From positions 806,001-870,000 of the forward strand of contig CP137870.1 in the NCBI GenBank assembly GCA_034406715.1: 64,000 nucleotides of DNA. The letters run 5' to 3'. Positions 62,311-64,000 of this stretch are shown piece after piece. Each line of letters starts with the position of its first letter. The first letter of the stretch is position 1. A program made the translations under genes and the position numbers. The notes below the pieces were generated by a model that worked only from the letters and a program-made list of their open reading frames with translations, made no database searches and was not told where the DNA came from. This DNA comes from Rhodotorula mucilaginosa. Its lineage: Eukaryota > Basidiomycota > Microbotryomycetes > Sporidiobolales > Sporidiobolaceae.

Positions 62311-63879
62311 TCAAACCTGCATCGCAAACTCTGCGTCGCCGCGCTGCAAGTCGTCCATCCTCAGCGTCAACCCGCCAGAGCCAGTCGACTCGCCATTAAG
62401 CCCGGGCAGACGACCGTCGCCCAACACGCCATCGACTCCAATCCCGACCTCCATCTCGAACCCGAGCGAACTGGACAAGTTGCGGTAGAACTCGTCGTCC
62501 ATCCACGCGTCGTTGGGCGCCGGCACGTACGGCAACTCGTCCTCCGCCACGGCCAGCGTGGGGAAAGAGTCGAGAGGGTTCGGAGGAGAAGGGGACCACA
62601 CCGAGGAGGGAGAGGGAGAAGACGCCGAGGAGGCCGCAGGCGTGAAGTGGTCCGTTCCGAAAGCGGGAGCGGGCAGGCTCAGGAACGCGTCTGCGCGTTG
62701 AGGCGGCCGCGGAGTGACGTCGGCGGCGGGGACAGAGGCAGGCGATGCGGTCGACGACGCCACTGAGAACCACCCCGACGGATCGAGCGCAGTCGAAACG
62801 TCGAACTGGACCTTGTTCGCCGGGGCAGGCGCAGCGGACGGTGGAGGGAGGAGGAAGGCCGACGCGGCCGAACTCGCGTCGTCTTGCGCCGACTCGGCAT
62901 ACTCGACCAGATCGAGCGACGACGTGGACGACGAACCGATGCTGCTGTTGAGCGAAGACGAGCCGAACGACCAAGTCCTTTGCTGACTTTGCTGCTGCGG
63001 GGGGTGCTCCGGGGTTTGCTGCTGCATGCTGGTCGGGTACCGCTGCTCCGCTGACGATTGTCGCTGTCGATGCTGAGGTGCCATGTCGATACTGTACGGT
63101 ACCGACCTTGCGCTTGTCCGCTTCGTTGTCGTCGTTGCCGTCGCTCCGCCGGACGCCTCCCTCCCGCGCCGCTTCCTCTGCCGCTGTCTCGTATTCCCAA
63201 ACTGCGCCCATTCGACCGCTCGTCAGCTCTTTGCTCTCTCGCGTCTCATAGGATGGACGACCCTCCCACTCACCCAAGTGACCACCTGCTTCTCACTCAA
63301 GCCCGTCGCGCGCGCGAGTTCCCGCCTCTCGCCCTTGTTCGGCAGGGCGCCCGTCGCGTTCGCGTCGTACGCGGATTGGAGGAGGGCGGTGATGGCCGGG
63401 GTGAAGTGGCCGGAGAGGGTGGTAGTCGCTGCGTCGGTGGCGGGTGGCTGTGGTGGTGGAGGAGAGGAAGAGTGGCGGAGTTGGGCGGCGTGGACTTCCT
63501 CTCGGAAGATTCCCTGCAGGCGTTGCAGTGCTGAAGCGTATTGCGACAGGAAGGCTCTTCGCACAGCCTCGTACCACGAATCGCCTATGTCGTCGTAGGC
63601 CAATTCTTCCATTGTGGCGGCGAATTGTCGAAGGTATGCTCCCCGCAGATCTGCAGCGTGGCGCGAAAAGAGGCAGTCTAGCCCCTCGGCGGCCTTATCA
63701 CTACATCCTGCTTGCTTTAGAGCAGCGCAGATGCTCCGCGGTGGCTCAATGACCAAAGGAAGGTAAGGCTGCTTCCCTTTCGAAGGTGGCAGCGCTGCCG
63801 CTTGGAGCGCTGCGCTTTCGAATAGCGGATGCTTCAGGAGACTGTGCGCAATTGCGGCTATCTCTCTGAAGCTGGACAT
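62311..63879 (-). CDS. HD1: HD1-class homeodomain protein, candidate mating-type gene
   Basis: 498 residues from two exons (63274-63879 and 62311-63201). The N-terminal 150 residues are helical and probably carry the dimerisation/specificity region (FREIAAIAHSLLKHPLFESA; LQQRLQGIF-type helices). The homeodomain follows: HFTPAITALLQSAYDANATG, ALPNKGERRELARATGLSEK and QVVTWFGNTRQRQRKR. From the helix-1 Leu to Trp there are 35 residues, three more than in typical homeodomains, so it is TALE-type. That is the HD1 (bE/alpha2-like) class. WFxNxRxR in helix 3 is kept, and the intron splits it between W and F. The C-terminal 280 residues are Ser/Pro/Gln-rich, as in HD activators. The start at 63879 lies 121 bp from the window edge; in basidiomycetes HD2 is normally divergent from this position. 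Confidence 0.85.
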
Positions 63880-64000
63880 GGTGCGCTGCTGGGTGTATCC
63901 GCCAGCCGTTCGAGTCGATGTGTCTCTGAACACCGTCGGCCCCAAATTCCCTTTGTCTTCCGTCCGGACGCTCAGGCCCACTGCCCCGAATCCGTTCTCC

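Follow-up and report, generated by a model that had tools for sequence, protein, structure and literature searches.

The homeodomain gene at the right edge of the analysed stretch of Rhodotorula mucilaginosa DNA (64,000 nucleotides, hereafter the window; contig C7, positions 806001-870000, of a 20.35-Mb genome in 19 contigs) is most probably the HD2 member of an HD1/HD2 pair, with the HD1 gene lying just outside the window; judging from the sequences, we give this reading a probability of about 0.93. What the sequence adds is a new allele at a locus of familiar type, the HD (b-type) mating-type locus. An initial annotation had already proposed a mating-type homeodomain locus at this position, a proposal that the divergent HD1/HD2 pair bears out, and had assigned the two classes the other way round.

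The divergent homeodomain gene pair

The homeodomain gene that had been annotated at 62311-63879 (minus strand) was found to be an intact two-exon frame with a spliced protein of 498 aa, which matched the Pfam families Homeodomain (E=4.1e-10) and Homeobox_KN (E=1.7e-8), both above cut-off (Table 1). The intron was predicted from sequence, without a transcript; its removal yields the motif WFGNTRQR, and the unspliced frame encounters a stop inside the intron. The long Ser/Pro/Gln-rich tail described in the initial annotation was also recovered, with 16.7% Ser, 11.0% Pro and 6.0% Gln over 282 aa. A second homeodomain gene diverges from the first on the opposite strand, with the two start codons 187 bp apart, and the shared intergenic region presumably acts as promoter. 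The homeodomain of this partner contains a PYP loop and the sequence WFINARRRSGW. Its best Pfam match was Homeobox_KN at 43.4 bits, with PF00046 at 16.2 bits, below cut-off, and all 19 PDB sequences matched by its homeodomain at E<=0.01 were TALE proteins according to their names. A genome-wide search for Homeobox_KN, restricted to the best candidates and ignoring introns, gave five matches, the only two above cut-off being those of the window gene and its partner.

Table 1. Features of the proposed HD2/HD1 locus; positions refer to the window unless a contig is given
Feature	Position	Strand	Description
HD2 exon 1	63274..63879	-	Codons 1-202; N-terminal head and homeodomain to W48; ATG at 63879, open frame, donor GTGAGT
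HD2 intron	63202..63273	-	72 bp, phase 0, GT..AG, predicted; between homeodomain W48 and F49
HD2 exon 2	62311..63201	-	Codons 203-498 and stop; recognition-helix end, basic stretch, Ser/Pro-rich tail
Variable N-terminal head, residues 1-130	63490..63879	-	Divergence from P0001; helical in the P0001 AlphaFold2 model
Homeodomain, residues 157-216, intron-split	63160..63411	-	Pfam PF00046 39.7 bits, PF05920 34.6 bits; spacing 31
Conserved acidic/aromatic C-terminal motif DAWMDDEFYRNL, residues 433-444	62476..62511	-	10/12 positions invariant across P0001-P0005
Window share of the 187-bp HD2-HD1 intergenic region	63880..64000	.	Extends 66 bases past position 64000, as far as the HD1 ATG
HD1 (outside the window)	G000:C7:870067-871386	+	439 aa, intronless, ATG at C7:870067

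The relatives of the window gene were P0001 (R. mucilaginosa), P0002 (R. pacifica), P0003 (R. sphaerocarpa), P0004 (R. taiwanensis) and P0005 (R. toruloides), and this family is named HD2 because its partner bears the HD1/TALE features. Small held-out profiles were used to separate the two genes, one made from four HD2 relatives (P0002-P0005, the window gene and P0001 being excluded) and the other from six distant HD1 relatives (P0015-P0020). The HD2 profile scored 329 bits with the window gene and -3.1 bits with the partner. Conversely, the HD1 profile scored 440 bits with the partner and -9.5 bits with the window gene, which contradicts the HD1 label previously given to the latter. The window homeodomain alone reached 100.2 bits with the HD2 profile vs 14.3 bits with the HD1 profile. 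The initial annotation had also expected HD2 to the right of position 64000; a divergent homeodomain gene does lie there, within 2 kb, but it reads as HD1. Pfam alone was discarded as a classifier since both genes exceed the Homeobox_KN cut-off (the best family of the window homeodomain is PF00046, with the KN cut-off passed too), and it is the held-out profiles that separate them.

The HD1 side also provides the connection with the b locus of Ustilago, in which bE is the HD1 and bW the HD2 protein. This connection is made through P0021, a protein with a precomputed match to PF05722 (which we take to be the Ustilago mating-type domain) that scored 70 bits with the HD1 profile and 6 bits with the HD2 profile. 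Both systems are homeodomain pairs, and self/non-self recognition by bE/bW resides in their variable N-terminus (PMC2916851).

A carrier gene, spliced by prediction, adjoins HD1 on the side away from HD2, and this neighborhood recurs in other species. In R. pacifica the tags of HD2, HD1 and carrier are consecutive (JCM10908_000927/928/929), and in four further species HD2 or HD1 lies no more than two tags from the carrier. HD2 and carrier are two tags apart in R. mucilaginosa JCM8115 (003631/003629) and R. sphaerocarpa (2471/2473), and in Rhodosporidiobolus ruineniae the consecutive tags are those of HD1 and carrier (5675/5676). R. taiwanensis provides a point against the pair, since its HD2 tag is followed directly by that of the carrier (3281/3282) and no HD1 tag intervenes. 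Regarding the flanking genes named in the initial annotation, the LDAH-like one was supported by PF10230 matches in two ORFs; for the DUF2231 flank, two raw ORFs had no Pfam match and an exon-level search of the genome, ignoring introns, gave 0 matches.

Allele divergence and the proposed role of the heads

Comparison of the window HD2 with P0001 (JCM8115_003631) revealed a divergence located at the N-terminus, since only 27 of 89 head residues (30%) were identical, as against 20/26 in residues 131-156, 58/60 in the homeodomain and 214/244 in the tail, gaps omitted. These values correspond to one allele pair, in which the annotated start of P0001 is perhaps wrong, with about 40 N-terminal residues absent. 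Within this pair, they agree with the polymorphic N-terminus anticipated in the initial annotation. Over its whole length, the adjoining carrier gene shares 99% identity with JCM8115_003629, from the same strain as P0001, so that the genome belongs to R. mucilaginosa or a very near relative. The alignment of the two heads scored 77, vs a mean of 11 and a maximum of 36 in 500 shuffles, and the heads are therefore regarded as diverged homologues. The window HD2 thus shares loop length and a near-identical homeodomain with the JCM8115 protein and differs from it in the head, as a different allele.

A similar pattern was observed for HD1, for which 12 sequences were compared. Heads showed 10-28% identity in 54 of 55 pairs from 11 sequences, P0007, headless in its model, being excluded from this count. 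Among the partner and P0006-P0014, identity was 83-100% in the homeodomain region and 74-99% in the tail; the R. pacifica proteins P0015 and P0016 were more distant (60-67% and 51-63% in these two regions). Two pairs showed mosaic patterns: P0006 agrees with the partner at every position from 1 to 280 and shows 85% identity to it in the tail, and between P0010 and P0013 identity is 18% in the heads and 99% in the tails. From these alignments, HD1 heads and tails appear to differ in history, as might result from recombination or conversion, with assembly chimeras as another possible source. The annotated HD1 of Rhodotorula sp. CCFEE 5036 (P0007) starts just upstream of the homeodomain, either through a wrong gene model or through real loss of the head.

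The helical N-terminal region described in the initial annotation was recovered in a model of the orthologue P0001 (helices within residues 6-107). The AlphaFold2 model of P0001, built with 5 sequences (mean pLDDT 56.9), contains head helices at residues 6-21, 26-61 and 66-107, homeodomain helices between 131 and 188, and a low-confidence tail. Amid this tail, the DAWMDDEFYRNL motif, a candidate activation helix, is shared by all five of the HD2 relatives that were aligned, and in the P0001 model it includes a short helix (residues 402-411, block pLDDT 68). The window copy of the motif runs on as NLS, and all five aligned relatives have NLF. The HD1 model (P0006, 14 sequences) had a mean pLDDT of 59.7 and a helical head at residues 2-97.

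If the locus behaves like the HD loci that have been characterised in basidiomycetes, HD1 would not pair with the HD2 of its own allele. Once two cells carrying unlike alleles have fused, HD1 from one parent would join HD2 from the other through their variable N-terminal helices, and the resulting heterodimer would use both homeodomains to bind DNA and would start the dikaryon programme. The expectation that heads pair between unlike alleles and not within one allele draws on studies of mushrooms and smuts to which PMC2916851 refers. Residues 1-130 of the window HD2 would then constitute the self/non-self recognition domain, and heterodimerisation and allele discrimination are likewise expected from these systems. 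The locus resembles those of Sporidiobolus salmonicolor and other red yeasts, described as divergent with variable N-termini (PMC2916851; PMC3236058), in its divergent HD1/HD2 genes, HD2 intron, variable N-termini and conserved homeodomains. Altogether, we consider an active mating role of the HD2 locus probable.

The explanation that competes best with this role accepts the same identity with a different function, namely that a true HD1/HD2 pair by descent has been kept for a non-mating role in an effectively asexual yeast. R. mucilaginosa and Rhodotorula have been described without a sexual cycle, and strain JGTA-S1 of R. mucilaginosa was reported to carry HD1 together with a "remnant" of HD2 (PMC6476726). 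Early stops were reported in the HD2 gene of some asexual red yeasts, and none were found in HD1, for which an extra role was discussed (PMC3236058). In the genome analysed here, however, HD1 and HD2 are both intact, the divergence is concentrated in the N-terminus, and a STE3 match is present together with pheromone-like genes. We regard retention for a non-mating role as rather unlikely.

Loop length and the HD1 alternative

A 60-residue homeodomain has a canonical spacing of 28 between the helix-1 aromatic residue and W48. In the window protein this spacing is 31, so that the three extra residues between helices 1 and 2 noted in the initial annotation are indeed present. The same value was obtained for P0001 and P0002, with 30 in P0004, 29 in P0003 and 28 in P0005. 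Expressed as homeodomain length, the window gene has 63 residues and its relatives 60 (R. toruloides), 61, 62 and 63. In Agaricus, HD2 has a classical 60-residue homeodomain and HD1 a TALE one (PMC8305134). Read strictly, a 60-residue definition of HD2 would leave out the window gene with its 63 residues, but the members of this family vary in length, which therefore does not define it. Loop length was consequently abandoned as a class marker. Since HD2 relatives span spacings of 28-31, a loop of TALE length is unsafe as a marker of HD1 in Rhodotorula, and reliance on this variable feature explains the earlier HD1 label.

Structural comparison with the P0001 model did not settle the class either, because the model fits exd and typical homeodomains alike. 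It superposes on several exd chains at 1.0-1.1 Å over 55-56 columns and on many typical homeodomains at about 1.0-1.7 Å over 50-62 columns. Foldseek returned 323 matches at E<=10, none of them at E<=0.001, and the best 50 of the 323 mix typical and TALE homeodomains.

That the window gene is nevertheless the HD1 member, with HD2 outside the window, would be suggested by its loop, three residues longer than the canonical one, by its KN match above cut-off and by the presence of TALE proteins, as assigned by name, among the PDB sequences matched by its homeodomain at E<=0.01 (14 of 57, the six best being DUX4 or DUX4-like). This reading has to face the PYP loop, the WFINARRRSGW sequence and the exclusively TALE matches of the partner, profiles that set the two genes more than 300 bits apart, and the spread of spacings among the six sequences of the window family. 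Furthermore, the window gene has an intron and the partner has none, as expected from the HD2 gene of S. salmonicolor, which is depicted with an intron (Fig S1 legend in PMC2916851). We consider an exchange of the two classes highly improbable. Equally improbable is a non-mating homeobox regulator that happens to adjoin an unrelated homeodomain gene: PF00046 matches above cut-off do occur at five other places in the genome (contigs C1, C4, C8, C9 and C18; in a motif scan of seven loci there, a plausible WFxNxR core was found at two of the five, C18 and C1), but all five proteins matching the window gene at E<=1e-3, in a search that scored the 7995 candidates sharing most words, came from Rhodotorula, the gene order with HD1 and carrier recurs across species, and the heads diverge.

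With the window gene taken as HD2, the spacings of 28, 29, 30 and 31 in its family suggest, as far as the sequences go, that the three loop residues may reflect a later gain and not TALE ancestry. The neighboring carrier of the window is 96% identical to that of R. pacifica, 88% to that of R. taiwanensis and 80% to that of R. sphaerocarpa, and the loop is longest in the species nearest to the window by this measure; the HD2 loop may have grown rather than shrunk toward the window species. In PBX/exd the TALE loop is a partner-docking pocket. It is conceivable, though we give the idea little credence, that in the R. mucilaginosa lineage the HD2 loop lengthened stepwise to TALE length, converged on HD1 geometry and now acts as such a pocket. 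If this were true, the HD locus would encode two TALE-shaped homeodomains, and partner choice would have shifted partly from head to loop.

The pheromone-receptor locus and sexual biology

Matches to the pheromone receptor STE3 were restricted to C12:498066-499029, where two ORFs matched STE3 again; the first-look match crosses two stops, which were taken as introns. A filtered six-frame scan of 70 kb around STE3 identified two genes with tandem Y[PR]GLGYTRNGC repeats (4 and 3 repeats), presumably rhodotorucine-like, and three PQVGNYLAC genes with 2 repeats each. Two unrelated families of CAAX pheromone precursors thus flank one STE3, with members at G000:C12:484305 (-), 509201 (+) and 510495 (+) and at 491203 (+) and 496917 (-). 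Near STE3 we also found an importin-beta gene (KAP95-like), an LSM match and RPL18ae. The rhodotorucine-like genes beside the importin-beta gene suggest that STE3 may be of the A1 type. The A2 pheromone peptide sequence was not found in the literature search. If the PQVGNYLAC repeats were the opposite-type pheromone, one haploid would produce the two types together, a point relevant to self-fertility. RibL6, sought with PF01159, gave one match, on C5, although the papers may intend another L6.

Contig C12 (828,085 bp) was covered in its first and last 6 kb, in the 460-540 kb region without its last 10 kb, and in short loci around family matches. CCCTAA repeats were found at its start (7 hexamers in the first 6 kb) and TTAGGG repeats at its end (12 in the last 6 kb, including one at the inner limit of these 6 kb). 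No telomere-repeat array was found at either end of C7. With telomere repeats at both ends, C12 looks like a whole chromosome, apart from the HD-bearing C7. Because of these telomeric ends, the HD and pheromone/receptor (P/R) loci appear to be unlinked, on different chromosomes, unless C12 is misassembled.

This arrangement differs from that of S. salmonicolor, which is pseudo-bipolar with some HD-P/R linkage; in the R. mucilaginosa genome studied here the P/R locus lies on a separate telomere-ended contig. Strain JGTA-S1 is of the same or a very near species, and HD and STE3 are on different scaffolds in both genomes. In JGTA-S1, however, HD2 was considered a remnant and HD-STE3 linkage was left undecided (PMC6476726), whereas here HD2 is intact after removal of the intron and the contig ends oppose linkage. 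Pheromone receptor alleles were not found in R. mucilaginosa in a PCR survey (PMC3236058), which counts against an active mating role. No other account of R. mucilaginosa mating loci was recognised in our literature search, most subscription papers being outside its scope.

For a common red yeast that is treated as asexual, the locus described here supplies an HD1/HD2 allele that is intact and correctly labelled, and its N-terminal divergence between alleles is of the kind maintained by sex. Furthermore, the structural evidence for separate HD and P/R loci in this assembly addresses a point left open by the published study, so that cryptic tetrapolar sex becomes testable in this yeast.
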